IMG/VR virus record: IMGVR_UViG_3300020465_001298 | Location: 1-47,444 of that record | Strand: one strand, 5' to 3' | Length of the DNA: 47,444 nt | Source of the DNA: a virus | Shown here: positions 14,243 through 47,444 of the stretch, piece after piece | How the letters are laid out: every line of letters starts with the position of its first letter | Position numbering within the stretch: the first letter of the stretch is position 1 | Translations under genes and position numbers: made by a program | The notes under the pieces: model-generated | What the model saw: the letters and a program-made list of their open reading frames with translations, nothing else | Databases searched by the model: none | Told to the model about the DNA's origin: nothing

Positions 14243-14250
14243 AAAAATAA

Positions 14251-14544: not shown

Positions 14545-14582
14545 TATAATTAAAATGAATTGAAAGAAATGGAGTTAATTAA

Positions 14583-16266: not shown

Positions 16267-16394
16267 CCCTAGCAAATGTCTTACTTTAGACAACAATCCC
16301 ATTTGTATTATCCACTATATATTTCGGGTTATGAAAAGGTGAAAATGTCTATTATGAATTATACAAATACGATGGAAACGGAACAGCACGTTAG
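16263..16394 (+). pseudogene. Decayed tandem copy of the 16084 small membrane protein gene
   Basis: Read in frame from the ATG at 16263, the codons align without gaps to the gene at 16084 over about 44 codons. Shared blocks are MTLANVLL, IPFVL, KG, YY and GNGTA. The tryptophan codon has become TAG (16287) and a later isoleucine position is TGA (16332), so it cannot be translated whole. The ATGA junction is duplicated as well. The 3' half now overlaps the start of zwf in another frame. Confidence 0.78.
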
Positions 16395-29717: not shown

Positions 29718-31023
29718 GAAGTCTCCCAATATAATTAAAAGACTTTACTATAGTATAGTTCCTTTTAGTAAAAGATATGGTAAAGTGTATGAAGATACAC
29801 TTTCTTTTTTAACACAATCTGTTGATTGGTCAGAGTGGAGATTAAAAGAATATCAATTATTAGAGATGAAGGTGTTACTTCATCATTGTTATAACAATGT
29901 ACCCTATTATAGGCAGATATTCGTTGACAATAATTGGACTCCTGATGATTTTCAAAATGTTGATGACTTAAAAAAGTTTCCAGTTCTCACTAAGAAGATT
30001 ATCATGGAGAATAGGAATGATCTTATTGCCTCAAACTTATCACATCAAAAGGCATATCCTATTACAACTAGTGGTTCTAGTGGTGACAAGTTGAAGTTTT
30101 TTGTTACTGATGATGTCTTCAAGAAAGAGGCAGCGTTTAATATGCGTGCCTATCAACAACAGGGAGCACAGATGTATGATACTCCCAGTGTGTGGTTGAG
30201 GAGGTATGTACCTAAGAATAGTGATTCACCACTGTGGTATTATGACCACGAACTGAAACGTCTTTATATGTCAGCTTATCATCTAAATGATGATACTATC
30301 GATGAGTATATTAATAAGATTAATTCTGGTAACTATCAGACTATTTGTACTTATCCATCCTCAGCATACATCCTGGCTTGTCTGTGTGAGGAGAACAATC
30401 TAAATCTAACTCAGATTGAGAAAATTCATGTTACATCAGAAAAAATGTTGAATCAGTGGTATGATAAAGTTGTAGATATATTTGGTATCAGACCTTGTGG
30501 TCATTATGGTCAAATGGAAAAGGTATCATTCATGCATCAGACTGAAGAGTCAAGAGACTACCATCAAAACTATGAGTATGGTATTGATGAATTTTATGAT
30601 AATGGTGATGGTACACATGGATTAATTGCCACTGGATTTATTAACTACTATATGCCACTTATTAGGTATAGGACAGAGGATACTTTTGTCTTGAAGAATG
30701 GTAAGGTGAAAGAAATCAACGGACGTAGTAGTGATATTCTAGTATCAGATACTGGTGCTAGACTACCAGGTGTAAATTTCTATAGTTGGATTGATAAGAA
30801 AATGCCAGCTGTTAAGATGTTCCAGATTATTCAAAAGTCTAAGAAAGATATCACCTTCAAGTATGTTCAAAATGAGTCTTATGAAGGAGATATACATAGT
30901 GAAATTGTAAATGGTCTAAAGTCAAGACTTGGTGATATGAATTACGATATATTGAAGGTATCTGAAATACCTAGAGATAAGAACACACAAAAAATTAGAA
31001 GCATTATTAATGAGGTTAAGTGA
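29692..31023 (+). CDS. CapK/PaaK-like adenylate-forming ligase
   Basis: 443 aa from the ATG at 29692 (a GTG five codons upstream is possible). The ATP-binding loop ITTSGSSGDKLKFF and later segments (HYGQMEKVSF, LIATGFINYYMPLIRYRTED, INGRSSDIL) are those of phenylacetate-CoA ligase and the CapK proteins found in capsule clusters. It would activate a carboxylic acid as adenylate, perhaps to put an acyl or amino-acid group on a sugar. Actual substrate unknown. Confidence 0.8.
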   Translation: MGTIKSIVKKSPNIIKRLYYSIVPFSKRYGKVYEDTLSFLTQSVDWSEWRLKEYQLLEMKVLLHHCYNNVPYYRQIFVDNNWTPDDFQNVDDLKKFPVLTKKIIMENRNDLIASNLSHQKAYPITTSGSSGDKLKFFVTDDVFKKEAAFNMRAYQQQGAQMYDTPSVWLRRYVPKNSDSPLWYYDHELKRLYMSAYHLNDDTIDEYINKINSGNYQTICTYPSSAYILACLCEENNLNLTQIEKIHVTSEKMLNQWYDKVVDIFGIRPCGHYGQMEKVSFMHQTEESRDYHQNYEYGIDEFYDNGDGTHGLIATGFINYYMPLIRYRTEDTFVLKNGKVKEINGRSSDILVSDTGARLPGVNFYSWIDKKMPAVKMFQIIQKSKKDITFKYVQNESYEGDIHSEIVNGLKSRLGDMNYDILKVSEIPRDKNTQKIRSIINEVK

Positions 31024-32288
31024 TGAATGTAAGTTTTGTTGGTCTTGGCAAACTGGGTTTGCCTCTTGCTTGTTGTCTTGCAAAAGCAGGTAATAGAGTC
31101 CTGGGTGTAGATAAGAATGAATATGTTCTGGACAAACTAAACAATCAAGAACTACCGTTCTACGAACCAGGTTTGTCAGATATTTTTCCACATACAAACT
31201 TTATAGGATTTACTGACTCTTATAAAAGGGCTGTGGATGAGACCGACGCTACAATCATCCTGGTCAATACTCAATTGGGTGATACTGGATACTCGGCAGA
31301 GTTTGTAGAGTCTGCTCTTATCGATCTTGCAGTCAATTTGAAAAAAAGTGATAAGGATTATCATTGTATTATTCTGTCATCTACTGTTCTTCCAGGAACT
31401 ATTGCCAAACTTATTAGTCTTTTTGAAAAAATTTCGGGAAGAAAGTTTGAGGAAGGATTTGGTTTTGCATATGTTCCGGACTTTGTGAGACTGGGTAATG
31501 TAATCAAAGACTTTATGAACCCAGAATTTTTTCTTGTAGGTGCTAATAATTGGAATGATGTAAGTATTGTTACAAGAATTTTTGGTCACTTTCATAAAAA
31601 CAATCCACCTAAAAAGTATCTGACATTAGAAGAGACTGAGGTAGCAAAAGTTGCTCTTAATGCTTTTATTGTCAATAAAATTACTTTTGCAAACTTCCTT
31701 GGCGAGTGCTGTGAGGGTATGTATAATGTTGATGTTCATAAAATTACTGATACTATTGGTATTGATAAAAGAATCTCTCCATATTTCTTTGGGTATGGAA
31801 CTCCATTTGGTGGTACTTGTTTTCCTAGAGACACATCTGCTTTCATTAAGTTTGCCTCTGATAGAGGTAAAGAAGCAAAGCACCTTGAATTTGCTAATGA
31901 GGTTAATAAAAATGTATATAAAACTATTTTAAATAAATGTCGTGAACATCAAACGATTGGCATTGTCGGTGTATCATTTAAACCAAACTCTCCCGTCACA
32001 ATTGGATCTCCATCAGTAAAATTAATTGCAGATCTAGCAAAAATTAGTAAAACAATATATACTTTTGATGAATTGGATGAGACATTCAACAATCTTAATG
32101 GATTAAATGAATTTATTCATAAATGTGTATCACCACAAGAGGTAATTGATATGTCTTCTGTGTGTGTTTTCATGCATCCTACAAAAAAATATGCTACACT
32201 TAAAGTTGATGGAAAAGAATTAGTTGATAACTGGGGCATTTTTTCATCTGAAAAACTTTTTACAGTGGATACTTCGTTACCTGACTAA
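31023..32288 (+). CDS. UDP-glucose/GDP-mannose 6-dehydrogenase family protein
   Basis: 421 aa; ATG at 31023 overlaps the upstream stop (TGATG), with a GTG one codon before. Rossmann GLGKLGLPLA at residues 6-15, ILSSTVLPGT loop, and the active-site FGGTCFPRDTSAFIKFA with the catalytic Cys near residue 266. The third domain ends VCVFMHPTKKY. Makes a UDP- or GDP-uronic acid by two-step oxidation. Slightly divergent, so the substrate is open. Confidence 0.87.
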   Translation: MNVSFVGLGKLGLPLACCLAKAGNRVLGVDKNEYVLDKLNNQELPFYEPGLSDIFPHTNFIGFTDSYKRAVDETDATIILVNTQLGDTGYSAEFVESALIDLAVNLKKSDKDYHCIILSSTVLPGTIAKLISLFEKISGRKFEEGFGFAYVPDFVRLGNVIKDFMNPEFFLVGANNWNDVSIVTRIFGHFHKNNPPKKYLTLEETEVAKVALNAFIVNKITFANFLGECCEGMYNVDVHKITDTIGIDKRISPYFFGYGTPFGGTCFPRDTSAFIKFASDRGKEAKHLEFANEVNKNVYKTILNKCREHQTIGIVGVSFKPNSPVTIGSPSVKLIADLAKISKTIYTFDELDETFNNLNGLNEFIHKCVSPQEVIDMSSVCVFMHPTKKYATLKVDGKELVDNWGIFSSEKLFTVDTSLPD

Positions 32289-33319
32289 TGATTAAAAATA
32301 GAGAGAGTGTTGATTCTTTGAAACCTTACAATGTGGGAGGTAGGTCTAACCTATCTTATGATTGGGAGTGCTTTGATTGGAATGAGTCAGAGTTTCCACC
32401 ATCAAATGGAGTGTTTGAGGTGATGAAGAATTTTTATCGATATGAAAGATACCCTGATATCTGTGCTTCCAATTTGAAGCAGAAACTATCAGAGTATGTT
32501 TCTCTCCCATCAGACTTTATTGAGGTGTATAATGGATCTGATGATGGTTTAAGAGATATCTTTACTGTGTTTGTGGATAAGAATACAAAAGTATTAACCT
32601 ATGCTCCCTCATACACACAGGTAGATACATTTATTTCTATTAATACAGACCACTATGTAAAGGAACAAATTGTAGATCCTCTTGGTAGACATGAATATGA
32701 ATGGGACAAATGTATTGATAAAGATGTAGTTTATATTGTCAATCCCAATAATCCGACAGGTAAATTGATTGATGTATCTACTATTCAGGGATTGCTTCAA
32801 GAAAATCCAGATACATTATTTGTGGTAGATGAAGCGTATTATGAGTTTGCAAAACAATCTTGTGCTCACCTAGTAATAGGTTATAAGAATTTGATTGTTA
32901 CCAGAACATTCTCTAAGGCATTTGGACTGGCAGCAGTCAGACTTGGGTATGTATTGGCACATCCTGACCTTCTTTTTAATCTTAGAAAGATTAAAAATGG
33001 TAAGACAGTCAATGCCATGGCACAAATGTGTGGTGTAGCAGCACTCAATGATCTTCATTATCTGAATGCTAGAATTGATGAGATGAATGATGCTAAGAAG
33101 TTTTTTATCGACAATCTAGCAAACAAATATACTGCTATCAATAGCAATGCTAATTTTGTACTGGTAAAAACACCTGATGCAAAAAGTCTTCTAGATAAAA
33201 TGAAAAAAAACAAGATTCTTATCAGAGATAGAAGTTCCTTTATTAATCTTGAAAATTGTGTTAGAATTACAATAGGTTCTAAGAAGCAAATTATTAAAGT
33301 ACTTGGAGTAATGAATTAA
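32288..33319 (+). CDS. PLP-dependent aminotransferase, HisC-like
   Basis: 343 aa, fold-type I. PLP lysine in RTFSKAFGLAAVRLGY; VYIVNPNNPTGK and FVVDEAYYEF hold the usual Asn and Asp/Tyr cofactor contacts. Most like histidinol-phosphate aminotransferase or threonine-phosphate decarboxylase. Its place between a nucleotide-sugar dehydrogenase and a fucosyltransferase suggests an amino group or amino-alcohol being made for the polysaccharide rather than histidine. Stop-start overlaps on both sides. Confidence 0.83.
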   Translation: MIKNRESVDSLKPYNVGGRSNLSYDWECFDWNESEFPPSNGVFEVMKNFYRYERYPDICASNLKQKLSEYVSLPSDFIEVYNGSDDGLRDIFTVFVDKNTKVLTYAPSYTQVDTFISINTDHYVKEQIVDPLGRHEYEWDKCIDKDVVYIVNPNNPTGKLIDVSTIQGLLQENPDTLFVVDEAYYEFAKQSCAHLVIGYKNLIVTRTFSKAFGLAAVRLGYVLAHPDLLFNLRKIKNGKTVNAMAQMCGVAALNDLHYLNARIDEMNDAKKFFIDNLANKYTAINSNANFVLVKTPDAKSLLDKMKKNKILIRDRSSFINLENCVRITIGSKKQIIKVLGVMN

Positions 33320-34257
33320 TGATTGGATATGATCGTTTAGGTAGCAATGGACGAATGGGTAACCAACTCTTTCAGTATGCTGCTCTTAGAGGTATTGCAG
33401 AACATCATGGATATGATTGGTGTATTCCTCCCGAAAATACACCCAATCAATCCAACTATGGTATACACGAGGCATTTAATATTCCTCAAGAGCATATAGG
33501 ATACATTAATCCTAACATTTCAATGCAGACAATTTATAGTGATCAGACAATTCAGATGATGAATCCTGATGTAAAAACTGTGCAAGAGAAGTCATATGGA
33601 TTTGATAAGGAGTTATTTGATAATTTCCAAGATAATACAAATCTTGATGGATATTTGCAATCATACAAATATTTTGAAAATATTAGAGAGCAACTTCTGG
33701 GAGAACTTACATTTAAAGATGATATTCTAGAACCCTGTAAAGAGTTTTTATCTGGATTTGATAAGATTATCTTTCTACATGTTAGGAGAGGTGATGCCAC
33801 TAGAACTAAAAAACATAGAGAAATTTTTCCTATGCCCACCTGGGAATATTATAAAGAAGCACTATCACATTTTGATGATGATATACCTGTTTTTGTATCT
33901 AGTGATGATGCTGAATGGTGTCAAAAACAAGATTTCTTTTCCGATGATAAATTTTTAATTAGAGAATCAGTTGATTTATATGACCATGTTCATAGAGACG
34001 GTGATGGTGAACATCATCAATCCTGTGTTCCACATACTGATATGTGTCTGATGTCCCTATGTAATGGTGGTATTCTATCCAGAAGCACATTCTCCTGGTG
34101 GGGTGCTTATCTGATTAAGAATCCTACACAACCTATTGTGGCTCCCAAACCATTTCAATATTATAAACCTGCTTATGATATTGAGTCACATACTGTTGAT
34201 GAGTCTTTCCTCATCCCTGACAATTGGATCACTGTAAGTAAAGGTATTAGAGGTTAA
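33319..34257 (+). CDS. Second GT11 family fucosyltransferase-like enzyme
   Basis: 312 aa. GRMGNQLFQYAALRGIAEHH, FLHVRRGDATRTK and STFSWWGAYL are the GT11 motifs. It is longer than the GT11 at 27722 because of an insert rich in His and Asp (HVHRDGDGEHHQSCVPHTDM). Sequence is clearly diverged from the first, so different acceptors are likely. Overlaps the upstream stop by one base. Confidence 0.87.
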   Translation: MIGYDRLGSNGRMGNQLFQYAALRGIAEHHGYDWCIPPENTPNQSNYGIHEAFNIPQEHIGYINPNISMQTIYSDQTIQMMNPDVKTVQEKSYGFDKELFDNFQDNTNLDGYLQSYKYFENIREQLLGELTFKDDILEPCKEFLSGFDKIIFLHVRRGDATRTKKHREIFPMPTWEYYKEALSHFDDDIPVFVSSDDAEWCQKQDFFSDDKFLIRESVDLYDHVHRDGDGEHHQSCVPHTDMCLMSLCNGGILSRSTFSWWGAYLIKNPTQPIVAPKPFQYYKPAYDIESHTVDESFLIPDNWITVSKGIRG

Positions 34258-34259
34258 TC

Positions 34260-34880
34260 ATGACTTATTCTAAGAGATTTAGTAGTAAATTCTATGCAAG
34301 ATTACTGAAACCTGCTGGTAGTAATCCAGTAAGAGATAGAGCATCCTCCTTTGAGATTATCTTTGAACTGCTGGACCAGAAAGAAGATAAGAATTTTTTG
34401 ATTGTAGAGACTGGTTGCATGAGAAGAGACCATGGCAATCTTGCTTTTGGTGATGATGGTGCTAGTACGTATATTTTTGATGACTTCATTAACTTCTATG
34501 ATGGAGAAGTTCATTCAGTAGATATTTGTGAGGATAATGTAAACTATGCAAATGAATTAACCTCTGATAAGACGACAGTGCATTGTCAAGACTCTGTTGA
34601 TTTTCTATGGAACTTGCCAAAGAAACAGATTGATTTCTTGTATCTTGATTCCTTTGATATTATTAAGGAGGACCCTCATCCATCTCAACTACATCATGTG
34701 AAAGAGATGTGCGCTGCTATTGATAAGTTAGGTAAGGGTTCTATTGTCTGTATTGATGACCATAATGCATTTTTTACCAATGATGGGAAGATTGCTAAGG
34801 GAACATATGTAAAAGATTTTATGGATGATATAGGAATGAAACCTATACATGAAGGATATCAAATTGTTTGGGTAATATAA
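34260..34880 (+). CDS. Class I SAM-dependent methyltransferase-like protein
   Basis: 206 aa. FLIVETGCMRRDHGN resembles the glycine-loop strand (motif I), EVHSVDICEDNVNYANEL the acidic motif after beta2, and DFLYLDSFD the motif at beta4. The fold is that of cephalosporin-hydroxylase/methyltransferase-like proteins common in sugar clusters. Could methylate a sugar; catalysis not proven. Confidence 0.65.
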   Translation: MTYSKRFSSKFYARLLKPAGSNPVRDRASSFEIIFELLDQKEDKNFLIVETGCMRRDHGNLAFGDDGASTYIFDDFINFYDGEVHSVDICEDNVNYANELTSDKTTVHCQDSVDFLWNLPKKQIDFLYLDSFDIIKEDPHPSQLHHVKEMCAAIDKLGKGSIVCIDDHNAFFTNDGKIAKGTYVKDFMDDIGMKPIHEGYQIVWVI

Positions 34881-35618
34881 ATGAGTGATGTATTTCTAAA
34901 AGCATGGCACGGTGGACTTGGTGATTCATTACAGTTCTCTACTCTCCCAGAGGAGTTTCATAAACAGCAGAACAGAAAGACATATATCTTAGAGGATGCA
35001 CTTTTTAGAAATTCAGAAATATATGATCTGGTGTGGAATAAGAATCCATATGTAGAAGGAAAGAAAGCAGGAACTTGGAATGCAGGTGACCTACCAGACA
35101 TCCCATATCAAGAACTGTGTATGGATGGTAAGGGCACTGGTAATATGATTTCCAATTGGGAATTGTTTCATGGATTGGAACCAGTGAATAGTCATCCTAA
35201 AATTTATTATGAACCAGAAATTCATGATGGATATAAGGATGTCTTTATTGTTGATTTCACTTCTACAACCATAAGTTATAATGAAAACAAGTTAAAAAAT
35301 ATTCTTGAGGATATGAAAAAAGAATATTCAGACAAGAGGTTTCTTTCTATTGATTTTGTAAAGTCAGTATCTAGTAATTCATATGATATTGAGTATGATG
35401 GATGTATTGAAGTGGAAAGTATTTTTAGGTACTGTGATCTTATGGCATCATCATATGGATTACTTACAGTAAGCAGTGGTGCTAGTCATATGAGTTCTGC
35501 TGTAAAAGATTATGCTCCAGATCTTGACAGTATTTGTGTTATGCCAGAAAAGTGGTATAATTATCATAAGGAAAGGGGACTGTTCTTCTTTGACAATGTT
35601 AACTATGTAATTTATTAG
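34881..35618 (+). CDS. Glycosyltransferase family 9 (heptosyltransferase)-like protein
   Basis: 245 aa. N-terminal KAWHGGLGDSLQFSTLPEEF resembles the GLGD loop of GT9 ADP-heptose transferases, and the C-terminal YGLLTVSSGASHMSSAVKDY resembles their donor-site SGxxHxA region. It is shorter than typical GT9 (about 330 aa). A heptose or similar transfer would match the HldE-like genes downstream. Directly follows the methyltransferase-like gene. Confidence 0.62.
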   Translation: MSDVFLKAWHGGLGDSLQFSTLPEEFHKQQNRKTYILEDALFRNSEIYDLVWNKNPYVEGKKAGTWNAGDLPDIPYQELCMDGKGTGNMISNWELFHGLEPVNSHPKIYYEPEIHDGYKDVFIVDFTSTTISYNENKLKNILEDMKKEYSDKRFLSIDFVKSVSSNSYDIEYDGCIEVESIFRYCDLMASSYGLLTVSSGASHMSSAVKDYAPDLDSICVMPEKWYNYHKERGLFFFDNVNYVIY

Positions 35619-35619
35619 T

Positions 35620-36600
35620 ATGGCAAAATTTTTAATTACTGGTATTTCGGGATTTGCTGGTGCTCACCTAGCAAATCTTCTTCATCGTGAGGGACATAAA
35701 GTATTTGGTCTCATTCGTCGTACCAATGGTATGGAAAGTGACATTCGTGATGTTGTTCCTGATGATGCTTATAACTCTATCACTTTCCTGTACGGAGATC
35801 TGACCAACTATCGCTCCATGCGTAAGGTCTTTGAGGAGAATGAGTTTGATGGTGTATTTCACCTAGCAGCACAGTCTCATCCACCCACTAGTTTTCGTGA
35901 TCCTATTGGCACAATGGAAACTAATGTTATGGGTAGTGCCAATCTTATCCAGGTCCTTCAAGATCATCAACCCGATTGTAAGGTGATGTTCTGCTCTACA
36001 TCAGAGGTGTATGGCAATGTGGGGCAGGATGGACGTAAGATTCACTGGACTGATGCCATTGTTCCTTCCAACCCTTATGGTGCCTCTAAGGCAGCAACTG
36101 ATGTATATCTTCAAGAGAGATTCAACAATGGATTTCTGAAAGGATTCATTACTAGGGCATTCTCTCACACTGGACCACGCAGAGGACGTATCTTCTCCAT
36201 CTCATCTGATGCATATCAGATTGCTAGGATGATGAAGGGTTATCAAACCAAAGAACTTTTGATTGGTAACCTTAGCACAACAAGAGTTGTGATGGATGTA
36301 CGTGATACTGTCCGAGCGTACTATCTTGCCATGATGAATGAAGATGTGACTAACCATGTGTTCAATATCTGTGGTGATACACCCAGACAGATGCAGTATT
36401 TTACTGACAAATTGATTGAAATTTCAGGTTTGAATGATGTAGTACAGAGGATCCATGAACCCTTCTGGCGTCCACATGAGATTCACTATCAACATGGTGA
36501 CTCTTCTAATCTGGTTGAAATGACTGGATTCAAGGAAGAGTATGATATTGACACTACACTTGGTGATTTGTTGAAGTATTGGTATGACAAAATCTCATGA
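35620..36600 (+). CDS. gmd: GDP-mannose 4,6-dehydratase
   Basis: 326 aa, extended SDR. NADP-binding ITGISGFAGAHLA at residues 6-18; FCSTSEVYG holds the Ser/Thr-Glu pair and NPYGASKAATDVY the Tyr-xxx-Lys. TRAFSHTGPRRGRIF fits the GDP-mannose pocket. Makes GDP-4-keto-6-deoxy-mannose, the precursor of GDP-fucose and GDP-rhamnose. No clear GDP-fucose synthase is seen in the window, so the next step may use a host enzyme or another phage gene. Overlaps the next ATG. Confidence 0.88.
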   Translation: MAKFLITGISGFAGAHLANLLHREGHKVFGLIRRTNGMESDIRDVVPDDAYNSITFLYGDLTNYRSMRKVFEENEFDGVFHLAAQSHPPTSFRDPIGTMETNVMGSANLIQVLQDHQPDCKVMFCSTSEVYGNVGQDGRKIHWTDAIVPSNPYGASKAATDVYLQERFNNGFLKGFITRAFSHTGPRRGRIFSISSDAYQIARMMKGYQTKELLIGNLSTTRVVMDVRDTVRAYYLAMMNEDVTNHVFNICGDTPRQMQYFTDKLIEISGLNDVVQRIHEPFWRPHEIHYQHGDSSNLVEMTGFKEEYDIDTTLGDLLKYWYDKIS

Positions 36601-36992
36601 TTGTTTTTGTCAATGGTTGCTTTGATGTGCTTCATAGAGGGCACTTTGAGTTAATCAAGTATGCTGCTTCTCTTGGTGATACACTAATTGTGGCACTTGA
36701 CTCAGACAATAAGGTATCTCAAGATAAGGGATACCTTAGACCAATATACCCCCTTGAGGATAGAGTTTTTCAGATGATGTCTATCAAGGGTGTAAACGTG
36801 GTGCATACATTTGATAGTAGATATGAGTTGGAATCATTGATAGATTCCATACGACCTGATATACTGATAGTGGGTTCTGATTGGAAAGGAAAAGATGTTG
36901 TAGGTGCAGAGTATGCAAAAGAAGTTAGGTACTTTAAAAGGATTGGAAGTTACTCAACAACAAAAACAATTCAAGGTTCTACTTATAGGTGA
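36597..36992 (+). CDS. HldE-type nucleotidyltransferase domain, free-standing
   Basis: 131 aa. FVNGCFDVLHRGHFELI has the HxGH motif of cytidylyltransferases, and SYSTTKTIQGS the closing ST motif. Matches the C-terminal (RfaE2) domain of the bifunctional HldE, which puts a nucleotide on heptose-1-phosphate. Here it is a separate gene placed before the kinase, the reverse of the fused order. ATGA overlap with gmd; overlaps the kinase by 80 bases. Confidence 0.82.
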   Translation: MIVFVNGCFDVLHRGHFELIKYAASLGDTLIVALDSDNKVSQDKGYLRPIYPLEDRVFQMMSIKGVNVVHTFDSRYELESLIDSIRPDILIVGSDWKGKDVVGAEYAKEVRYFKRIGSYSTTKTIQGSTYR

Positions 36993-37713
36993 CTCTTGTA
37001 TAGACAGATATGTGTATGGTGTTGTTGATAGGATCAGTCCCGAAGCACCTGTACCTGTTCTGAAATGGGAGAGAGAGGAGACAACTGGTGGTATGGCATG
37101 GAATGTTTATTACAATCTCCTCTCATTTGGTATAAATGTAAGTATCATTACCAATGAAGAAAAACCCATCAAGACTAGATATGTTGATCTTAAATCAAAT
37201 CAACAGATTATGAGACTTGATGAGAAAGATGAGGTGAGTGACTTTGGTTATGCCCTACCAGATAATGAGTATGATGCTCTTGTTATCTCTGACTATAACA
37301 AAGGATTCATCTCATCTGAGATGCTTAATCGACTTGTAAATTGGTTTGATGGTCCAGTGTTTGTGGACACAAAGAAACCAATGGTTCCTCCTGCCAAGGC
37401 ATTCATCAAGATCAATGAGTATGAACATGCCAAAGTGGGTGAGACTACAGACAAAATGATTATCACAAGAGGATCAAAAGGTGCTGAGTATCAGGGAAAA
37501 CTATATCCTGGTGTTAAAGTAAATACATTTGATGTTTGTGGTGCTGGTGATACATTCTTGTCAGCCCTTGTGTATTATTACCTGATACATGATAAAATTG
37601 AAAAGGCAATACCTTTTGCTAATAGGGCAGCTGCCATTGCAGTGCAAAACCAAGGTACTTATATACTTTCACAAAGAGACATAAATGAATTGGCACCTGA
37701 TATCATATGCTGA
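36913..37713 (+). CDS. HldE-type sugar kinase domain (PfkB family), free-standing
   Basis: 266 aa from the ATG at 36913; in-frame GTG and TTG starts nearby make this uncertain. VLLIGDSCIDRYVYGVVDRI, then TTGGMAWNVYYNLLSFG and the catalytic DVCGAGDTFLSALVYYYL are those of the RfaE1 kinase that phosphorylates heptose-7-phosphate. About 50 residues shorter than the bacterial domain, with a gap before MIITRGSKGAE. The catalytic Asp in GAGDTF is kept. Confidence 0.82.
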   Translation: MQKKLGTLKGLEVTQQQKQFKVLLIGDSCIDRYVYGVVDRISPEAPVPVLKWEREETTGGMAWNVYYNLLSFGINVSIITNEEKPIKTRYVDLKSNQQIMRLDEKDEVSDFGYALPDNEYDALVISDYNKGFISSEMLNRLVNWFDGPVFVDTKKPMVPPAKAFIKINEYEHAKVGETTDKMIITRGSKGAEYQGKLYPGVKVNTFDVCGAGDTFLSALVYYYLIHDKIEKAIPFANRAAAIAVQNQGTYILSQRDINELAPDIIC

Positions 37714-38437
37714 TGAAACCTTTGCAAAGCAGCAAAGGTTCTTGCATCAAATACATAAGCAAAAATTTGTACATCATCCCTTTACAAGAAAGGATTTAGT
37801 ACAAACAAAATTCTATCAAGAAAATAAAAAAATACTAGACCAAGAAACTGGTGCTGGGTATTGGTTGTGGAAACCATATTATATTCTTGAGATTCTTAAA
37901 TCTGCTGAGGAGAATGACTTTGTAATCTATGCTGACTGTGGAGACATGTTCTCTAAAGGTTTAGTTGATTATGTAGAACAAATTCTAGAAGACGAGGACA
38001 TTTCATTTTTACTATTGACTAGTACAAAAAACAGTAATTCCACAAAAAGAGATTGTTTTATTAAAATGAATTGTGATGAAATGATATATTATGAATCAAA
38101 TCATTTAGAAGCAGGTTTCCAAATATGGAGAGTATGTGATAAGTCCATTAAAGCAATCGAAGAATACTTAGAGTATTGTAAAGATGAGGTCATCATTAAC
38201 AATGATCCAAGTACATTGGGTGAAGAATTGCCTGGATTTTTGGAACATCGTAATGATCAAAGTATCCTAACTAATCTTGCAATTAAAAATGGTTACACTG
38301 TAGGTGGAACAGAGTATAGAAATTTTGTAGAATGCAATTATGAATATTGGTATGAAAGGGATAATGCAGGATATGGTCGTGAGATTGATTTATTTTTGAA
38401 CGAAATCAAGGAGGAGTGGAAATGCACAGTATTATAG
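37685..38437 (+). CDS. Putative glycosyltransferase
   Basis: 250 aa. ETGAGYWLWKPYYILEILKS followed by DFVIYADCGDMF (DxGD) is typical of small sugar transferases that sit in surface-glycan clusters; a later EAGFQIWRVC and EHRNDQSILTNLAIKNGY also fit. No confident family number. It overlaps the kinase by 29 bases and the next gene by 16. Confidence 0.65.
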   Translation: MNWHLISYADETFAKQQRFLHQIHKQKFVHHPFTRKDLVQTKFYQENKKILDQETGAGYWLWKPYYILEILKSAEENDFVIYADCGDMFSKGLVDYVEQILEDEDISFLLLTSTKNSNSTKRDCFIKMNCDEMIYYESNHLEAGFQIWRVCDKSIKAIEEYLEYCKDEVIINNDPSTLGEELPGFLEHRNDQSILTNLAIKNGYTVGGTEYRNFVECNYEYWYERDNAGYGREIDLFLNEIKEEWKCTVL

Positions 38438-39249
38438 TTACAATACACAATAGTGCTAGACAAATTCCAACAGGAGAGATTCTTTTGGAGAAAGTTTTAG
38501 ATGGTATCGTTAATAATACCACTGGTGACTATGAACTTCTTTGTATGCTTGATGGATGCACTGATGATTCTGACAAAATTGTAGACAAATACACTGATAG
38601 AGCTAATGTAAGATCAATAGTTCTTCCAGATATATTTGAAGTTAGAACAAACAATGCTGCATTCAAAGAATCAAAAGGAGAGTTTGTAATTGTAGTGCAG
38701 GATGACCAGGTTGTTGCTGAAAAGGGTTGGAATGAAAGGATGCAGAAACCCTTTGATAATTTTTATGATGTGTTTGCTGTGACTGCAATGTGCTCTCACA
38801 ATTGGGAAGTTAATCCTCACTCAATTCATCTTCATAATCCCAACATACCAGTAACAGGGTGGTGTGATATTTTAAATCATGTAGATCATGCCTCAGTAAA
38901 TCATGGTTTGTCTAGGGATGTCTTTGCTGTAAGGTCTTCTGCTAACAGGGGACCTTTGATGATGAACTTAGATGATTTGAAAAAATTAAATTACCTTGAT
39001 GATTCATTTGCCCCATGTGATATGGATGATCATGACCTTATGTACAGGGCATTTCTTGAACTTGGTAAAGTTTGTGGTGCTTATACTATTAATATGGAAC
39101 CAATGTCCTGGTCTAGTGGAGCAAGAGTTGGTGGTGATCTGCCCCTCTGGGCATACGAATCACAGCATAAAAATACCAGAACTTTTTATGAGAGATATCA
39201 TAATGTGTTAGCATCTCATAGAATCATTGATAATAGAGTGTTAAAGTGA
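38422..39249 (+). CDS. Glycosyltransferase family 2
   Basis: 275 aa from the ATG at 38422, which has a strong GGAGGAG box seven bases upstream; the GTG at 38416 lies inside that box. SIIVTIHNSARQ, ELLCMLDGCTDDS and FVIVVQDDQVV are the GT2 nucleotide-binding strand and DxD region. Transfers an unknown sugar. Last of the main overlapping run; a late promoter follows. Confidence 0.82.
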   Translation: MHSIIVTIHNSARQIPTGEILLEKVLDGIVNNTTGDYELLCMLDGCTDDSDKIVDKYTDRANVRSIVLPDIFEVRTNNAAFKESKGEFVIVVQDDQVVAEKGWNERMQKPFDNFYDVFAVTAMCSHNWEVNPHSIHLHNPNIPVTGWCDILNHVDHASVNHGLSRDVFAVRSSANRGPLMMNLDDLKKLNYLDDSFAPCDMDDHDLMYRAFLELGKVCGAYTINMEPMSWSSGARVGGDLPLWAYESQHKNTRTFYERYHNVLASHRIIDNRVLK

Positions 39250-39251
39250 CC

Positions 39252-39259
39252 TATAAATA
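39252..39259 (+). promoter_or_regulatory. T4-type late promoter TATAAATA inside the island
   Basis: Perfect TATAAATA directly after the GT2 stop, 27 bases before the ATG of the remnant at 39279 and 103 before the cupin gene. The last genes of the island may therefore be made late. Confidence 0.65.
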
Positions 39260-39278
39260 TTAGTAAATTAATTTTAAC

Positions 39279-39374
39279 ATGAGCTTACCTGATTCTTATT
39301 ATTTAAAGTTTGCTAAAAATATCTATACTCAGTGTGGTGAGGATGGAATTAAATATGAACTCGCCAAAGGATGA
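39279..39374 (+). pseudogene. 31-codon remnant of a YSQ-GEDGI-type protein
   Basis: Reads MSLPDSYYLKFAKNIYTQCG then EDGIKYELAKG and stops. YTQCGEDGI resembles the (Y/F)SQ-GEDGI opening of a large family of methyltransferase-like proteins in sugar clusters, after which the match ends. Probably the left-over 5' end of a deleted gene, now overlapping the cupin start. Confidence 0.4.
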
Positions 39375-39717
39375 AATTAAGTTTGTTCCCAAAGGTTGGG
39401 GATATGAAAAATGGATTACCAACGGACCTTTATATTGCGGAAAAATTCTCTGGTTTTGTAAAGGAAAAAAATGTTCTTGGCATTATCATAAAAAGAAAGA
39501 TGAAGTATTTTATGTTCACAGTGGCAAGTTAGAAGTTTATTGGAGTTGGCATGATGATTTTCATGAGGCATACATTAAAATATTGAGTCCTGGAGAAAAA
39601 TTTTATGTTCCTGTGGGCATGAGACACAGGATGATTGCATTAGAAGATACTGAAATGTTTGAATTTTCAACCGAACATTTTGATGAGGATAGTATTCGTA
39701 TTGAAAAAGGAGATTAA
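39355..39717 (+). CDS. Cupin-fold protein (mannose-6-phosphate isomerase C-terminal-like)
   Basis: 120 aa from the ATG at 39355; the ATG at 39343 would add four. SWHYHKKKDEVFYVHSGKLE is cupin motif 1 (HxHxxxxE) and KFYVPVGMRHRMIALED is motif 2. Single-domain cupins of this kind act as isomerases or epimerases on sugar nucleotides or bind their products. It could be a sugar isomerase feeding the mannose pool. The TAATG junction couples it to the next gene. Confidence 0.75.
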   Translation: MNSPKDEIKFVPKGWGYEKWITNGPLYCGKILWFCKGKKCSWHYHKKKDEVFYVHSGKLEVYWSWHDDFHEAYIKILSPGEKFYVPVGMRHRMIALEDTEMFEFSTEHFDEDSIRIEKGD

Positions 39718-40517
39718 TGGACAAAAATAAATCAGCATATAAACTTAAAGGACTTCCTCCAATTTATTATATCAATCTTGATGGTGAACCAGAAAGAAAA
39801 ATTTATATGGAGGCACAACTAAAATACTGGGAGATAGAAAACTACACTCGTATTAGTGCCTATGATGGTCGTGAGGACGACCTAAGTGATATTATTAAAG
39901 GGAAGTATCCGGACATGGTTTCGTCCGGTGAGATTGGATGTGTGACCTCTCATCTTAAGGCAATTAAACACTGGTACGATACTAGTGATACTTCTTATGC
40001 AATTATTATGGAAGATGACTGTAGTTTAGATACTGCAAAGTGTTGGAACTTTACATGGAAAGATTTTATTGCAAAAGTTCCTTATGCCTGGGATGTAATT
40101 CAACTCGCAATTATTTCTACTGGTGATGTGCATGTACCTATTCATAATAGATTTGTAAATGATTTTTCGACAGCTTGTTATATCATTACAAGACACCATG
40201 CGAAGAAATTAATTGACTTCCATATTCGAGGTGACAAATATAAACTTGATTGTGGAGTTAAACCACGTCCTGTTGCCGATGATTTAATTTACAACTCTGG
40301 ACTAACATTTGCCACACCACTTTTGTTGTATCGTATCCAACTAGGGTCATCTATTCATCCAGAACATGTTGATATTTTTCATAAAAATAGTCATGACGGA
40401 ATTTTAAATTTTTGGCAGCAGCACGGATCTGATATTACTGTTGATGACATTACCAATTTTGATCCTTACTTTAACAAAATCAGTAATCCGTCAGGAAATT
40501 CCGGTCAAGGGGCTTGA
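39717..40517 (+). CDS. Glycosyltransferase family 25 (LPS-type)
   Basis: 266 aa. PIYYINLDGEPERKIYMEAQ at the N-terminus, SSGEIGCVTSHLKAIKHW and YAIIMEDDCSLD (EDD) are hallmarks of the LPS glycosyltransferase family 25. It would add galactose or a similar sugar to lipopolysaccharide. Closes the island. The C-terminus overlaps the -35 of the hli promoter. Confidence 0.87.
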   Translation: MDKNKSAYKLKGLPPIYYINLDGEPERKIYMEAQLKYWEIENYTRISAYDGREDDLSDIIKGKYPDMVSSGEIGCVTSHLKAIKHWYDTSDTSYAIIMEDDCSLDTAKCWNFTWKDFIAKVPYAWDVIQLAIISTGDVHVPIHNRFVNDFSTACYIITRHHAKKLIDFHIRGDKYKLDCGVKPRPVADDLIYNSGLTFATPLLLYRIQLGSSIHPEHVDIFHKNSHDGILNFWQQHGSDITVDDITNFDPYFNKISNPSGNSGQGA

Positions 40518-41583: not shown

Positions 41584-44433
41584 ATGTCTAGAGCAAGAAG
41601 TGTAGCTGATCTAGGTAATCAATCATTTAATTTCAGTGTTTCGGATGGTGCATTAAAAGTTGGTGCTGGCGTCACTATTGAAAGTACTGGTCAATCACAA
41701 TTTGCCGGAATTATTACTGCAACCAAATTTATTGGAGATGGGTCTGGACTTATTGATGTAACAGGAACTGGTTCTGGAGTCGTAGTTAAGAATAGTGGTT
41801 CTCCTGTAGGAACGGCTGCAACAATAGATTTTGGTGCAAATTTGTCAGTTAGTGCCGCATCTGCTGGCATTGTTACTATTACTGGTGAGGCAGGTGGTGG
41901 GGATACTGTATCCATAAATGCTACTGCAGATGATATTCTTTCAGCATCATCTGGATCTATTTCTGCCGATGATGCAGGTGCAGATAAGTTAGTATTCTGG
42001 GATGATTCTGCAGGTAAGTTAACTTACCTTACTGTAGGATCAAATTTAACGGTTAGTGATACAACAATAACGGCCTCTGGTAGTGGGGGTAGTGGAGCTC
42101 AAGGTGCTCAAGGTGTTCAAGGTGCTGCCGGTGCAGCCGGTGCTCAAGGTGCTGCCGGCGCTCAAGGTGCTACCGGAGCTGCTGGTGCTCAAGGTGCAGC
42201 CGGAGCTGTCGGTGCTCAAGGTGCAGCCGGAGCTGCCGGTGCTCAAGGTGCTGCCGGTGCTCAAGGTGCTGCCGGTGCTCAAGGTGCTGCTGGTGCCGTT
42301 GGTGCTCAAGGTGCTGCTGGAGATATTGTCACGACAAGATCAACTAGTCGTTTTGTTGCAACAGCAGCACAATCAGCATTCTCTACATCATATACTGTTG
42401 GTTATGTTGATGTATTTTTAAATGGTAGTAAACTTGATGGAACTGAGTATGCTGCAACGAATGGAAGTTCTGTTAGTTTAACAACTGCTGCAGCTGCCGA
42501 TGATATTGTTGAAATCATTGCTTATGAAACTGTTGGTATAACTTCTATATCATCTGCAACACAAGGATTAAATGTTACTGGTATTATAACTGCTACTGGT
42601 GGTATTGATGCCATAGGAATCCAATCGGGTGGTGTAAATATTTCTACAGGAATTGTTACTGCTCTTAATTTTATTGGTACTGGTAATACTTTTGCTGTTA
42701 ATGGAAACGTAGTTGATATTAGTATTGCTGGTGGTGGTGGAGATACTGTATCTATAGAATCTAGTGCAACTGATATTCTTTCAGTATCATCCGGAGATAT
42801 TTCTGCCGATGATGCAGGTGCAGATAAGTTGGTATTCTGGGATGATTCTGCATCAAAGTTAACTTACCTTACTGTAGGATCAAATTTAACGGTTACGGAT
42901 ACAACAATAGCAGCTTCCGGTGGTAGTAGTGGTATATCTAGTGTTTTTGAAGATACGACACCACGACTTAGTGGAGATTTGGATGCTAATTCTAAAAACA
43001 TAACAGGAATCAGTAGTATAGATTCTGGTAGTGGAGAACTATTTGTTAAATCTGATATAATTACATTTAAAAAATACGATGACACTGAGAGTATTGCTGT
43101 ATTTAATTCTGATGGTCCTGTCAACCTATTCTTTAACGGCAGTAAGAAATTTGAAACCACAAGTACTGGTGCTGAAATAACTGGTGATTTAACTGCAACA
43201 TCATTCAGTGGTTCTGGTGCTTCTCTAACTGGTGTTGTAACTTCTATTGTTGCCGGATCTAATATTACATTAACTGGTGGACCAACTGGAGCTATTACTA
43301 TTGCAGCCTCAGGAGGAGGTGGTATTGATGCCATAGGAATTCAATCTGCCGGAACACTTGTCGGAACTGCAACAACTATAAACTTTGTTTCTGGAGCAAC
43401 CATTACAAACAATGTTGCATCAGTTTCTGTTGGATCTACTATTAGATTTGTTGGTGCCAGAATATATTTCAATGATATGACTCCTGCAGGATCGGGTTCT
43501 TATTATAATGTAGATCAAAATGATTATGATGGTATTACTATAGATACAAATTCCTTCTATAATTCCACTAATGGTAGATTTGTTATACCAGCAGGTGTAT
43601 CAAAAGTTAGATTTACAATAACTCTTAGTAAAGATACAGGTGCTATTAATAATGCTTGGCTTGTAAGGAAAAATGGAACCCAAATCTATACTAGCGAGGG
43701 TGGTATATTTCATGAATTTGAGAGTTCTGGATATACTAATGTTGGAAGTGGTGCTATCACTGGTATATTATCATGTGAAGAAAATGATTATTTTCAACTT
43801 TCATATAATGTTGCTGCTACTACAGCAGATTGGTCTGGTTCTTTCCAAATAGAGGTTGTCGAGGGAGATATTCTTGGAACTTATTTTTCTGCTAATAATA
43901 TTGTAGATGATACAACTCCACAACTTGGCGGAAATTTAGATCTTAATGGTAAAAATATAACCGGAACTGGTAATGCCAATATCACAGGTATTATAACTGC
44001 AACAACATTTAGTGGTTCTGGCGCATCATTAACATCAATCCCTGCCGGACAATTGACAGGAACACTTCCAGCAATTAGTGGTGTTAATCTGACTGGTGTT
44101 GTAACTTCTATTACTGCTGGATCTAATATTACATTAACTGGTGGACCAACTGGAGCTATTACTATTGCAGCATCTGGTGGAGGAGGTGGTGGAGATACTG
44201 TATCCATAGAATCTAGTGCAACTGATATTCTTTCAGTATCATCTGGAGCTATTTCTGCTGATGATGCAGGTGCAGATAAGTTGGTGTTCTGGGATGATTC
44301 TGCAGGTAAATTAACTTACCTTACTGTAGGATCAAATTTAACAGTTACGAATACAACAATAACGGCCTCTGGAGGAGGTGGAGGTGGAGGTGGATCGAAT
44401 GGATTTGCCGTAATTGCTGGAATGATATTCTAA
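41584..44433 (+). CDS. Tail-fibre-like protein with collagen-like repeats and C1q-like domain
   Basis: 949 aa. Start MSRARSVADLGNQSFNFSVS. Residues about 170-247 are Gly-x-y triplets (GAQGAAGA type), a collagen-like trimer stalk. A module of about 60 residues containing ISADDAGADKLVFWDDSA occurs three times (about residues 104-165, 384-445, 868-929). Residues about 620-765 look like a C1q/TNF jelly roll (FVIPAGVSKVRFTITLSKDT). No lysozyme or peptidase motif is visible. Likely a trimeric fibre that touches the host surface. Confidence 0.82.
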   Translation: MSRARSVADLGNQSFNFSVSDGALKVGAGVTIESTGQSQFAGIITATKFIGDGSGLIDVTGTGSGVVVKNSGSPVGTAATIDFGANLSVSAASAGIVTITGEAGGGDTVSINATADDILSASSGSISADDAGADKLVFWDDSAGKLTYLTVGSNLTVSDTTITASGSGGSGAQGAQGVQGAAGAAGAQGAAGAQGATGAAGAQGAAGAVGAQGAAGAAGAQGAAGAQGAAGAQGAAGAVGAQGAAGDIVTTRSTSRFVATAAQSAFSTSYTVGYVDVFLNGSKLDGTEYAATNGSSVSLTTAAAADDIVEIIAYETVGITSISSATQGLNVTGIITATGGIDAIGIQSGGVNISTGIVTALNFIGTGNTFAVNGNVVDISIAGGGGDTVSIESSATDILSVSSGDISADDAGADKLVFWDDSASKLTYLTVGSNLTVTDTTIAASGGSSGISSVFEDTTPRLSGDLDANSKNITGISSIDSGSGELFVKSDIITFKKYDDTESIAVFNSDGPVNLFFNGSKKFETTSTGAEITGDLTATSFSGSGASLTGVVTSIVAGSNITLTGGPTGAITIAASGGGGIDAIGIQSAGTLVGTATTINFVSGATITNNVASVSVGSTIRFVGARIYFNDMTPAGSGSYYNVDQNDYDGITIDTNSFYNSTNGRFVIPAGVSKVRFTITLSKDTGAINNAWLVRKNGTQIYTSEGGIFHEFESSGYTNVGSGAITGILSCEENDYFQLSYNVAATTADWSGSFQIEVVEGDILGTYFSANNIVDDTTPQLGGNLDLNGKNITGTGNANITGIITATTFSGSGASLTSIPAGQLTGTLPAISGVNLTGVVTSITAGSNITLTGGPTGAITIAASGGGGGGDTVSIESSATDILSVSSGAISADDAGADKLVFWDDSAGKLTYLTVGSNLTVTNTTITASGGGGGGGGSNGFAVIAGMIF
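41895..44370 (+). repeat. Three copies of a ~180-base module in the fibre gene
   Basis: Copies at about 41895-42078, 42735-42918 and 44186-44370 are almost identical in DNA (shared run includes GCCGATGATGCAGGTGCAGA or a one-base variant). A second repeated block (GGTGGACCAACTGGAGCTAT) lies near 43273 and 44139. Internal duplication of a fibre segment. Confidence 0.75.
42094..42327 (+). repeat. Collagen-like GGTGCTCAAGGTGC repeat
   Basis: About 26 tandem 9-base units coding for Gly-Ala-Gln-Gly-Ala-Ala triplets. The same DNA unit recurs at 46834-46971 and 47290-47444 in the next fibre gene. Confidence 0.85.
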
Positions 44434-44455
44434 ATATAACTAAGGAGATAAAAAC

Positions 44456-44818
44456 ATGAGCGCACCAAATTTAGCAAGTCCAACAACAATTAATGGCAAA
44501 ACTGCAAGGGTAGGAATAACAACCACAGCAATTGTTGGTGTTATTACTAATGCTAGTTCTAGTGGTAAAGTATTAAAAATAAATTCAATATTTGCAGCAA
44601 ATGTTGATCCAACAACTGCTGTAGATGTAAGTGTATCTGTATATGATGGAACTAATGACTATTATATTGCATCAACAATTTCTGTTCCTATAAAGGCAAC
44701 CCAAATAATTTCTCAAAAAGATTCATACTTTTACTTAGAGGAAGGAGATCAATTAAGAATCACTGCAGGTGCTGCTGGTGATCTTAATATTATTGTTGGT
44801 TATGAGGATATTTCATAA
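44456..44818 (+). CDS. Putative virion structural protein
   Basis: 120 aa, MSAPNLASPTTINGKTARVG onward, Val/Thr/Ala-rich and beta-like (INSIFAANVDPTTAVDVSVS). AAGGAG box seven bases upstream; CTAAATATA element at about 44432 may be a late promoter. The start resembles small structural proteins beside fibre genes in T4-like cyanophages. The stop overlaps the next ATG (TAATG). No specific role assigned. Confidence 0.65.
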   Translation: MSAPNLASPTTINGKTARVGITTTAIVGVITNASSSGKVLKINSIFAANVDPTTAVDVSVSVYDGTNDYYIASTISVPIKATQIISQKDSYFYLEEGDQLRITAGAAGDLNIIVGYEDIS

Positions 44819-46614
44819 TGTCTAAATCGAGAGGACTTATATCTGGATCGACAACGGTTCGATCAAGAACTTCGGGAATGTATGATAATGATGATAATGT
44901 AAGACTTTCTAATATTTCAACTAACGGTCTAGATAGTTTGGGTTTTGGACGGTCAATTTTAGCAGAGAATATTGCTAGTAGTGCATATGATTTTGAATGG
45001 TCTCCAGACGGATTGCATTTATATATTGCAGAAAGTGGGGACTATATAAAACATTATACTGTTACTAAACCATTTACTACAACTGGTAAAACTCAAGTAG
45101 AATCTTTCAATATTTCAACTTATGATAGTTCCAACTATGGTTTTACAATGAGTCCTGATGGAAAATATTTTTATGGTTCTGGACCAAATAGAGACGGTAT
45201 ATTCATGTTTACATCGAATGTTCCATATTATCTTACAAATGGAGGTGCGCTTATAACTCCTAGTAGAACCACTTTTGCCTATGGATACAATCAAATAAAT
45301 CATTACTTAGATAATATTTTTGGTATTGGTTCTGCAGATGGTGGAATAAGAGGGATTGAATTTAATGGTGATGGCACGAAAATGTATTTGATTGGATTTA
45401 GTGATGATAATATTCAACAATTTTCATTATCGACACCATATGAAATTGGAGATGCATATGATGCTTCGGCATATGATGGTGCTTACAATATTGGTGGAGA
45501 TGGTATTACTTCTCCACAAGGTATGAGGTGGAATGATGATGGATCTAAGTTTTTTGTCGTAGATTCTTCTTTAGATTCGGTAATTGAGTATAGTGTATCA
45601 AATGCATATGATGTAACAACTGGAACAATAACTGAGGGAACAAATTTTTCTGTCAATTCATATGAAAACAATCCATATGATGTTGCATTTAATGCTGATG
45701 GAACAAAGATGTTTGTTATTGGAACTAGTAGTGATAAAATTCATGAATGGACTTTAAGCACTGGATTTGATTTATCATCAACAGTAACCTATGTTTCAGG
45801 AACATCATTAGGATTAACAAATCCTGCAGCATTTGATTTTAGTCCTGATGGAACATTCATGGCAGTTGTTGATTGGTATAGTGATATCTTAAAGGGATAT
45901 ACTTTGAGTACTGGATTTGATTCATCAACAATTTCTGCAACACAGACACATGATTTGACTACTATAGAAGGTAGTTCTTATGGTGCTACAACTATAAAAA
46001 ATCATTTCACTACTCCATATGGATGTAGATTTAATGGTGATGGAACTAAAATTACAATAATGGATGGTTATAGTTCCTCTTATGATAAAGCAGCATCCAT
46101 GCCATTATTAATACCATATGATGTAAGAGGTCTTGCTGATGGTTATCTTAATACTATAGCACAAGGAATGGATAATCCCTGGACAATAAGGTTTAGTCGT
46201 GATGGAAAAAAACTTTATATTTTAGATGGAAGTGATAGTAAAATATATCAATGGGCTTTACATACACCATATGCTCTGGGAAGAGGATCAAGTATTGTTA
46301 CTTTTGAGGGTAAGTCATCATCTATTAATGGAGGTGATCCTAGTCCTAGAGGTTTTGATTGGACACACGATGGAAAAGGTATGTTTTTTATGGGTGCTAG
46401 TAATGATACAATTTATTTTTATACAGTCTCAACACCATTTGATGTCACTAGTACATTAACATATAAAAGTAGTTATGATATATCATATTTTGAAGCATAT
46501 CCATACGTAATTCGTGTAGTTAACTGTCATAGTAGAGATGATGGTGGTGGATATAAACTTCAGCTTCTTGGAGTAGATAAAGATGATATATTTGAATATG
46601 ATATAAATTTCTAA
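44818..46614 (+). CDS. Fibre/receptor-binding-like beta-propeller protein
   Basis: 598 aa. About nine repeats of the kind FxxDGTKMxxxxxxSDxIxxx (for example FNGDGTKMYLIGFSDDNIQQ, FNADGTKMFVIGTSSDKIHE, FSRDGKKLYILDGSDSKIYQ), each followed by a STPY/STGFD strand. This is the pattern of a WD40/NHL-type beta-propeller, spaced roughly 55-65 residues. Such propellers bind ligands and suit a receptor-binding role. No signal peptide. Translationally coupled to the 120-aa protein. Confidence 0.72.
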   Translation: MSKSRGLISGSTTVRSRTSGMYDNDDNVRLSNISTNGLDSLGFGRSILAENIASSAYDFEWSPDGLHLYIAESGDYIKHYTVTKPFTTTGKTQVESFNISTYDSSNYGFTMSPDGKYFYGSGPNRDGIFMFTSNVPYYLTNGGALITPSRTTFAYGYNQINHYLDNIFGIGSADGGIRGIEFNGDGTKMYLIGFSDDNIQQFSLSTPYEIGDAYDASAYDGAYNIGGDGITSPQGMRWNDDGSKFFVVDSSLDSVIEYSVSNAYDVTTGTITEGTNFSVNSYENNPYDVAFNADGTKMFVIGTSSDKIHEWTLSTGFDLSSTVTYVSGTSLGLTNPAAFDFSPDGTFMAVVDWYSDILKGYTLSTGFDSSTISATQTHDLTTIEGSSYGATTIKNHFTTPYGCRFNGDGTKITIMDGYSSSYDKAASMPLLIPYDVRGLADGYLNTIAQGMDNPWTIRFSRDGKKLYILDGSDSKIYQWALHTPYALGRGSSIVTFEGKSSSINGGDPSPRGFDWTHDGKGMFFMGASNDTIYFYTVSTPFDVTSTLTYKSSYDISYFEAYPYVIRVVNCHSRDDGGGYKLQLLGVDKDDIFEYDINF

Positions 46615-46629
46615 ATACTTAAAAACCTC

Positions 46630-47444
46630 ATGGGAAAGACTAGAGAATCTGGGGAATTACTTTCTAACAATTTACTTTCTGCGGATCATTCATCGCAAAC
46701 AGTTAATGTTGGGTCTGCAATTACATTTTATGGTGGCACTACAGGAATAATAAGTGCCACATCCTTTAGTGGTTCTGGTGCTTCCCTTACTGGTATTACA
46801 ACGTCTCAAATTGTAGACTACTCTAGTTCTTCTGGTGCAACCGGCGCTCAAGGTGCCGCTGGTGCTCAAGGTTCTCAAGGTGTTCAAGGTGCTGCCGGTG
46901 CAGCCGGCGCTCAAGGTGCTGCCGGAGCTGCTGGTGCTCAAGGTGCTGCCGGTGCTCAAGGTGCAACTGGATTGCAAGTAACAGCAAAAACATACACATT
47001 TACTGCTAGTAGTGGTGTATATTATGTTGATAGTGTTCAACAAGATACTATTCATTTAATAAGAGGTCAAAAGTATATTTTTGATGGTTCTGCCGCAACA
47101 AGTCATCCTATAAGATTATCTACTGATTCTAATAATTCTACTTCTTATACCTCTGGTTATACAATTGGATCTAATAACACTCATACTTTTATAGTTCCTT
47201 ATGATGCACCAGATACACTTTATTATTATTGCAACATTCACTCAAACATGGGTGGTTCGATCTCCATTAAAGATTTAACATCTTCTGATTTGCAAGGTGC
47301 TCAAGGTGCCGCAGGAGCTGTTGGTGCTCAAGGTTCTCAAGGTGTTCAAGGTGCCGCAGGAGCAGCCGGCGCTCAAGGTGCTACCGGAGCTGCTGGTGCT
47401 CAAGGTGCTGCAGGAGCAGCCGGCGCTCAAGGTGCTACCGGAGC
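46630..47444 (+). CDS. Tail-fibre-like protein with collagen-like repeats and cupredoxin-like domain (3' end outside window)
   Basis: At least 271 aa and still open at the right edge. Start MGKTRESGELLSNNLLSADH. Residues about 69-114 and 221 onward are Gly-x-y collagen-like triplets. Between them, about 118-214, is a beta domain with His159 (ATSHPIRL) and Cys201, His204 and Met207 in YYYCNIHSNMGG. The Cys-x2-His-x2-Met spacing is that of amicyanin-like type-1 copper proteins. CTAAATACT at about 46611 may be the promoter. A copper site in a fibre is unusual; a purely structural role for the fold is also possible. Confidence 0.72.
   Translation, partial: MGKTRESGELLSNNLLSADHSSQTVNVGSAITFYGGTTGIISATSFSGSGASLTGITTSQIVDYSSSSGATGAQGAAGAQGSQGVQGAAGAAGAQGAAGAAGAQGAAGAQGATGLQVTAKTYTFTASSGVYYVDSVQQDTIHLIRGQKYIFDGSAATSHPIRLSTDSNNSTSYTSGYTIGSNNTHTFIVPYDAPDTLYYYCNIHSNMGGSISIKDLTSSDLQGAQGAAGAVGAQGSQGVQGAAGAAGAQGATGAAGAQGAAGAAGAQGATG
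46834..46971 (+). repeat. Collagen-like repeat, first block of last fibre gene
   Basis: About 15 units of GGTGCTCAAGGTGC-type 9-mers, near-identical in DNA to 42094-42327. Confidence 0.82.
47290..47444 (+). repeat. Collagen-like repeat, second block, continues past window
   Basis: Same 9-base unit, running into the right edge of the window; full length not visible. Confidence 0.8.

Follow-up and report, generated by a model that had tools for sequence, protein, structure and literature searches.

The last open reading frame (ORF) of the viral contig IMGVR_UViG_3300020465_001298 (positions 1–47,444 of the IMG/VR record; this whole stretch of 47,444 nucleotides is referred to below as the window) contains a segment best read as a cupredoxin domain with a complete type-1 copper site maintained by selection, a domain that recurs as a module in virion proteins of T4-like cyanophages. 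The probability of this reading is put at about 0.72. Both the fold and the site are known ones; their place is new.

The ORF is tail-fibre-like and is located at positions 46630–47442 of the plus strand. It begins with an ATG start codon and encodes 271 residues with no stop before the contig end, the gene being truncated at its 3′ end. The first collagen-like block occupies residues 69–114 (46834–46971; PF01391, E = 2.1e-16 for the protein). The second occupies residues 222–271 (47293–47442), where PF01391 and PHROG tail-fibre families match in two stretches, and is cut by the contig end. The sequence between the blocks, TAKTYTFTASSGVYYVDSVQQDTIHLIRGQKYIFDGSAATSHPIRLSTDSNNSTSYTSGYTIGSNNTHTFIVPYDAPDTLYYYCNIHSNMGGSISIKDLT, comprises about 103 residues (115–217; 46972–47280) and is assigned to the predicted cupredoxin-fold domain by AlphaFold2 modelling, Foldseek, PHROG 677 and profile matches. 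The original prediction, made from the sequence alone, had placed a beta-rich domain between two collagen-like blocks of the last gene, at 46981–47271; the PF01391 matches do flank residues 115–217, and the coordinates are correct, the folded unit being slightly longer. The same layout is found in fuller homologues of 760–1828 residues from viral contigs (L002, L025, L026, L030 and L032), and the collagen-flanked form recurs in at least five viral contigs other than the window; the 1828-residue protein of L025 contains two copies of the domain.

Four putative copper ligands are encoded on the plus strand of this segment: His159 of an HP motif, the first ligand (47104–47106); Cys201, the thiolate ligand (47230–47232); His204, the second histidine ligand (47239–47241); and Met207, the axial ligand (47248–47250). 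They align with His55, Cys92, His95 and Met100 of the phage plastocyanin, respectively. All four had been named in the original prediction, and their positions match those of the ligands of type-1 copper proteins. The predicted Cys-x2-His-x2-Met spacing is likewise found, the segment reading CNIHSNM with Met at Cys+6. Composition-shuffled copies of the domain contain a C-x2-H-x2-M motif in 0.03% of cases, and since all four positions are also conserved in distant homologues, the motif, as a feature of the sequence, lies far beyond chance. A fortuitous motif in an unrelated beta-rich domain might be suspected from the window domain taken alone, which has no Pfam match and weak PDB sequence matches; conservation, fold and profile results all speak against it, the homologue set refutes it, and its probability is practically nil.

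AlphaFold2 was run on the window domain with 34 homologues from viral contigs and one bacterial contig as supporting sequences. The window domain was modelled as a compact beta-sandwich of eight strands (mean pLDDT 94.9, pTM 0.85). All 50 PDB fold matches listed by Foldseek for this model are copper-protein (cupredoxin-fold) structures, as the fold proposed at the outset implied; they include multicopper oxidases, CuA domains, three-domain nitrite reductase, nitrous oxide reductase, plastocyanin, AcoP, rusticyanin and amicyanin, and are individually weak (E values of 1e-3 to 1e-2, best 1.4e-3; TM 0.3–0.64). As a fold control, a homologue lacking three of the four ligands was modelled separately. 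Its model (pLDDT 96.8) gave 105 PDB matches at E ≤ 0.001, of which the best 50 are almost all copper proteins, with AcoP at the top (E = 1e-5). Since this ligand-poor homologue matches the same fold, the fold assignment is independent of the ligand motif. According to the models, the domain almost certainly has a cupredoxin fold. A search of the BFVD with the model also returned small beta-sandwich proteins from giant viruses resembling Pithovirus and Marseillevirus (A0A481Z6J5, A0A481Z7Q7 and A0A481YVH3; E about 1e-6 to 1e-5).

Sequence profiles lead to the same group of proteins. A 14-sequence profile compared with all PDB chains matched copper nitrite reductase first (E = 3e-4), followed by plastocyanin (E = 0.005) and further copper proteins, and the Cys, His and Met columns are in register; with an 18-sequence profile, copper nitrite reductase leads at E = 2e-5. 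Weak antibody and unrelated matches stand lower in both lists. The best PDB profile match is the C-terminal cupredoxin domain of copper nitrite reductase (9cck, 6hbe), with its Cx2Hx2M in register; that domain is part of an enzyme, whereas the phage proteins show no catalytic copper partner. Curated families were approached below their cut-offs. The Copper-bind family (PF00127) did not match the window domain and listed 12 of 35 relatives at E ≤ 1 (best 0.0029). Amicyanin (TIGR02657), the NCBIfam model most often approached, listed 11 of the 35 (best E = 0.017), the window domain not among them. The At5g54830-like domain (PF25489) is matched by 19 of the 35 relatives (best E = 2.5e-5) and not by the window domain; a search of genomes with this family returned no matches, controls included. 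As no curated family threshold was reached, the domain lies outside the named copper-protein families and is a cupredoxin by fold and site. Amicyanin, plastocyanin, AcoP and rusticyanin share with it the fold, the ligand set and the ligand order, and amicyanin has the same C-x2-H-x2-M loop. In contrast to these single-domain proteins, which are free electron carriers, the phage domain is embedded in virion proteins; it falls below all family cut-offs, and the identity is about 10–20%.

The window also carries petE (13919–14242), a true plastocyanin-family gene (PF00127, E = 2e-16). Its product is a cupredoxin like the fibre domain, and the ligand columns of the two align; however, it is a free protein with a signal-like N-terminus, and its ligand loop reads C-GHHQGAG-M, with Met at Cys+8 instead of Cys+6, the very contrast in spacing noted in the original prediction. 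The fibre-domain profile aligns with the phage plastocyanin alignment weakly (P = 0.01), with all four ligands aligned and a score of 18.6–18.9, where 60 column shuffles gave 14.5 at best. Since the profile similarity is weak, the fibre domain and petE are not recent relatives. Origin of the domain as a recent copy of petE, already doubted on the spacing, was rejected on both grounds.

Homologues were collected in two scans, one with patterns that contain ligand residues (A3) and one with patterns that contain none (A2). The full ligand set is present in 237 of 255 full-length domains (179 loci). Reduction of the full-length domains at 75% identity gave 75 representatives: four ligands are kept in 65 of them, none or one in 10, and two or three in none. 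Independent column shuffling, which ignores the relatedness of the copies, leads one to expect a mean of 29 such intermediates (minimum 19); on the tree, at least three changes are needed, two of them forced by well-supported branches. As the A3 patterns favour intact copies, the coupling was rechecked on the A2 scan alone, in which 23 copies keep four ligands and nine keep none or one. Partial sites do occur outside the set of 75, and the claim that intermediates are strictly absent was given up: the L038 copy (domain at about 4001–4297) keeps His-Cys-His and has no axial Met, and in the copy of phage S-PM2 the second His and the Met are missing from their usual places. Loss of the axial Met alone is tolerated in known cupredoxins, and L038 may, judging by its residues, represent a Met-free copper site.

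Among the 28 intact representatives that share up to 60% identity, conservation of the four ligands is 100%, His159 and its counterparts included, and no scaffold residue reaches this level. In an alignment of 18 diverged intact copies (mean column identity 35%), the sole invariant columns are His, Tyr, Cys, His and Met; since these copies were hand-picked as intact, the alignment shows what else varies more than it tests the ligands. The homologues thus do not substitute the ligands freely, as the original prediction required: the ligands stay together or, in a minority lineage, disappear almost together. On the sequence evidence, a type-1 copper site is predicted, with His, Cys, His and axial Met in canonical order, conserved and in register with copper proteins, and it is very likely under selection for metal binding.

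Several viral contigs carry ligand-less copies, whose predicted fold is unchanged. Modular fibre proteins, in which the domain also sits, often contain beta-sandwich decoration domains, and the segment could accordingly be seen as a metal-free adhesive or spacer beta-sandwich with an Ig-like decoration role and a ligand set inherited as a relic. A relic, however, would decay residue by residue; the retention of the four positions in 28 of 28 intact representatives, above all scaffold residues, and the lack of two- or three-ligand states in the aligned set of 75 make this explanation very unlikely. Because the ligand-less copies keep the predicted fold, metal appears unnecessary for folding, and a purely stabilising role is weakened thereby; in the intact majority, selection must then act on something about the bound metal itself. 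The ligand-less copies of L087–L103 belong to proteins of up to about 1657 aa, and their cupredoxin domain is interrupted by a segment of about 60 aa (RSYAQGSLVVYDSKLWRAVRD...), which reads like a carbohydrate-binding module.

Of 50,697 phage records searched, 323 have a match at E ≤ 1, 96 of them at E ≤ 1e-5; the matching records are almost all from marine cyanophages, with a few Pelagibacter and marine records. The commonest home of the domain is the C-terminus of gp9, annotated as a baseplate wedge tail fibre connector, in many cyanomyoviruses. Other homes are gp7 and gp7-like proteins, a putative gp10-like fibre or wedge protein, and long and collagen-like fibre proteins. The C-terminal domain of gp9 (PHROG 677) is the same domain, with the four ligands conserved, and is matched at positions 317–410 of 412 (E = 2.7e-20). 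The N-terminal region of gp9 (PHROG 677 positions 1–300) is absent from the window ORF, which has a fibre-like and collagen-like region instead and carries its domain between collagen blocks. When 20 cyanomyovirus genomes were searched whole, a strong match was found in 19, with one to five matches each; P-HM2 has five, of which two or more carry all four ligands, and S-PM2 (NC_006820, about 50.5–50.9 kb, L225) stands out with only a degenerate copy. Whole-genome searches of T4 and of the podoviruses P-SSP7 and Syn5 gave no match, nor did a search for plasmid carriage of the domain. The original description, a domain inside a tail-fibre protein, suits the fibre-like ORF of the window but is too narrow: this is not one odd fibre, the domain being widespread in cyanomyovirus virion proteins. 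It is a modular unit carried in virion proteins of T4-like cyanophages.

The domain is not confined to viruses, because intact copies are also carried by 4 of 289 Alphaproteobacteria genomes, in secreted-looking proteins (L186, L190 and L193–L195). These proteins possess the same domain with the full ligand set, and are cellular and apparently extracellular. Three of the four bacteria have 1.4-Mb genomes, and the copies are tandem in three; in L193, L194 and L195, tandem intact copies are found in proteins of 427–442 aa encoded in 1.4-Mb genomes.

The ligand set argues strongly that the predicted domain binds copper, and copper is probably the metal on the virion. Met as the fourth ligand disfavours zinc. 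Cupredoxin scaffolds do accept zinc, nickel, silver or mercury in vitro, and the site might bind another soft metal, or copper merely incidentally in vitro; however, a His2-Cys-Met set spaced as in amicyanin is that of type-1 copper, and the leading PDB sequence relatives are copper proteins, so that this is unlikely.

The cytosol of the cyanobacterial host is nearly free of available copper. For this reason, virions with a copper-binding domain would be assembled in the host in the apo form and would acquire the metal after lysis, when the domain would take up copper from seawater. On the simplest account, the Cys thiolate would be capped by the bound copper and so protected from oxidation, the ligand loop, which lies at the exposed end of the beta-sandwich, would be locked in place, and the result would be a rigid, oxidation-resistant module at the baseplate or fibre tips. 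A mainly stabilising role, or a role in apo-to-holo maturation, is a tentative suggestion at somewhat below even odds. A redox or host-contact role may exist in addition; redox sensing and host contact are speculation here, and the data give no indication of either. A wider proposal, that most T4-like marine cyanophage virions are copper metalloparticles, whose apo baseplate and fibre cupredoxins load copper in seawater and whose apo/holo or Cu(I)/Cu(II) change tunes maturation or adsorption, is regarded as doubtful. The window domain contains a single Cys, and subunits might conceivably be joined through it by a disulphide.

Fibre-borne metal with a proposed seawater role has been described for the iron-binding HxH tail fibres of T4 gp37 and Alteromonas phage R22Y (PMC11705849). 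Those fibres hold iron by histidine pairs along the fibre, whereas the phage domain is a folded domain for which copper is predicted. A Trojan-horse idea has been put forward for phage tails with iron-binding HxH motifs, cyanophage tails reportedly among them (PMC11705849), and by analogy with this precedent a virion might present copper as a lure to a copper-uptake receptor on the host surface. The location of the domain in the baseplate and fibres, and the presence of at least a remnant in every sampled cyanomyovirus, would fit such a lure. However, there is no known receptor, gp9 joins the fibres to the baseplate and need not contact the host first, and T4, the sole non-cyanophage T4-like relative examined, lacks the domain; the lure is highly improbable.

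A redox or light-linked sensor, in which the oxidation state of copper would shift near an illuminated host and aid adsorption, would bear on light-dependent adsorption. If adsorption of S-PM2 depends on light, its degenerate copy weakens such a link. P-HM2 was reported not to adsorb in the dark, and P-SSP7 to infect in the dark (PMC7112961); this agrees with the five matches in the former and their absence from the latter, but two phages from different families are no proof. With P-HM2 and P-SSP7 fitting and S-PM2 carrying only a degenerate copy, the link to light-dependent adsorption was set aside as unsupported, and the chance that the domain is such a sensor is slight.

In the open-access literature, no report of a phage virion with a cupredoxin was found, subscription journals and preprints lying outside the search, and the public annotations of gp9 and PHROG 677 examined make no mention of a cupredoxin. 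T4-like cyanophages are among the most abundant viruses of the sunlit ocean. If their baseplates and fibres carry type-1 copper, the virions would be overlooked copper-binding particles in seawater, and copper status would become a testable variable in virion stability and adsorption. In the annotations examined, no function is given for the C-terminal domain of gp9, a structural protein conserved in cyanophages, and the reading would also put a name to it.

Several other features of the window were recorded. The heptamer CTAAATA, a possible though weak T4-like late promoter, occurs as an exact match at 46611–46617 (plus strand), 12 bases 5′ of the ATG of the fibre-like ORF, and again at 44430–44436; both copies lie shortly before fibre gene starts and overlap the stop of the preceding gene. 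CTAAATA shows no overall enrichment in the window, and in five of the seven cases on the plus strand an ORF start is no more than about 35 bases away; going by sequence and position, the copies at 44430–44436 and 46611–46617 are possible late promoters. The neighbouring tail-region ORF (44818–46614, 598 residues) has beta-propeller matches (SMP-30/lactonase-like, PF08450, E = 5e-10), which is unusual for a virion protein. The ORF at 41584–44433 encodes a large, collagen-containing, fibre-like protein of 949 aa with repeated VSIESSATDILSVSSG-type modules. A long run of sugar-nucleotide and glycosyltransferase-like genes (26646–40517; named by eye, one epimerase being matched) precedes the fibre genes. 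At 13919–17718, petE is followed directly by a ferredoxin-like ORF and then by 6-phosphogluconate dehydrogenase- and glucose-6-phosphate dehydrogenase-like ORFs, all except petE named by eye, and a transaldolase-like ORF, also named by eye, is found at 22366–23046.
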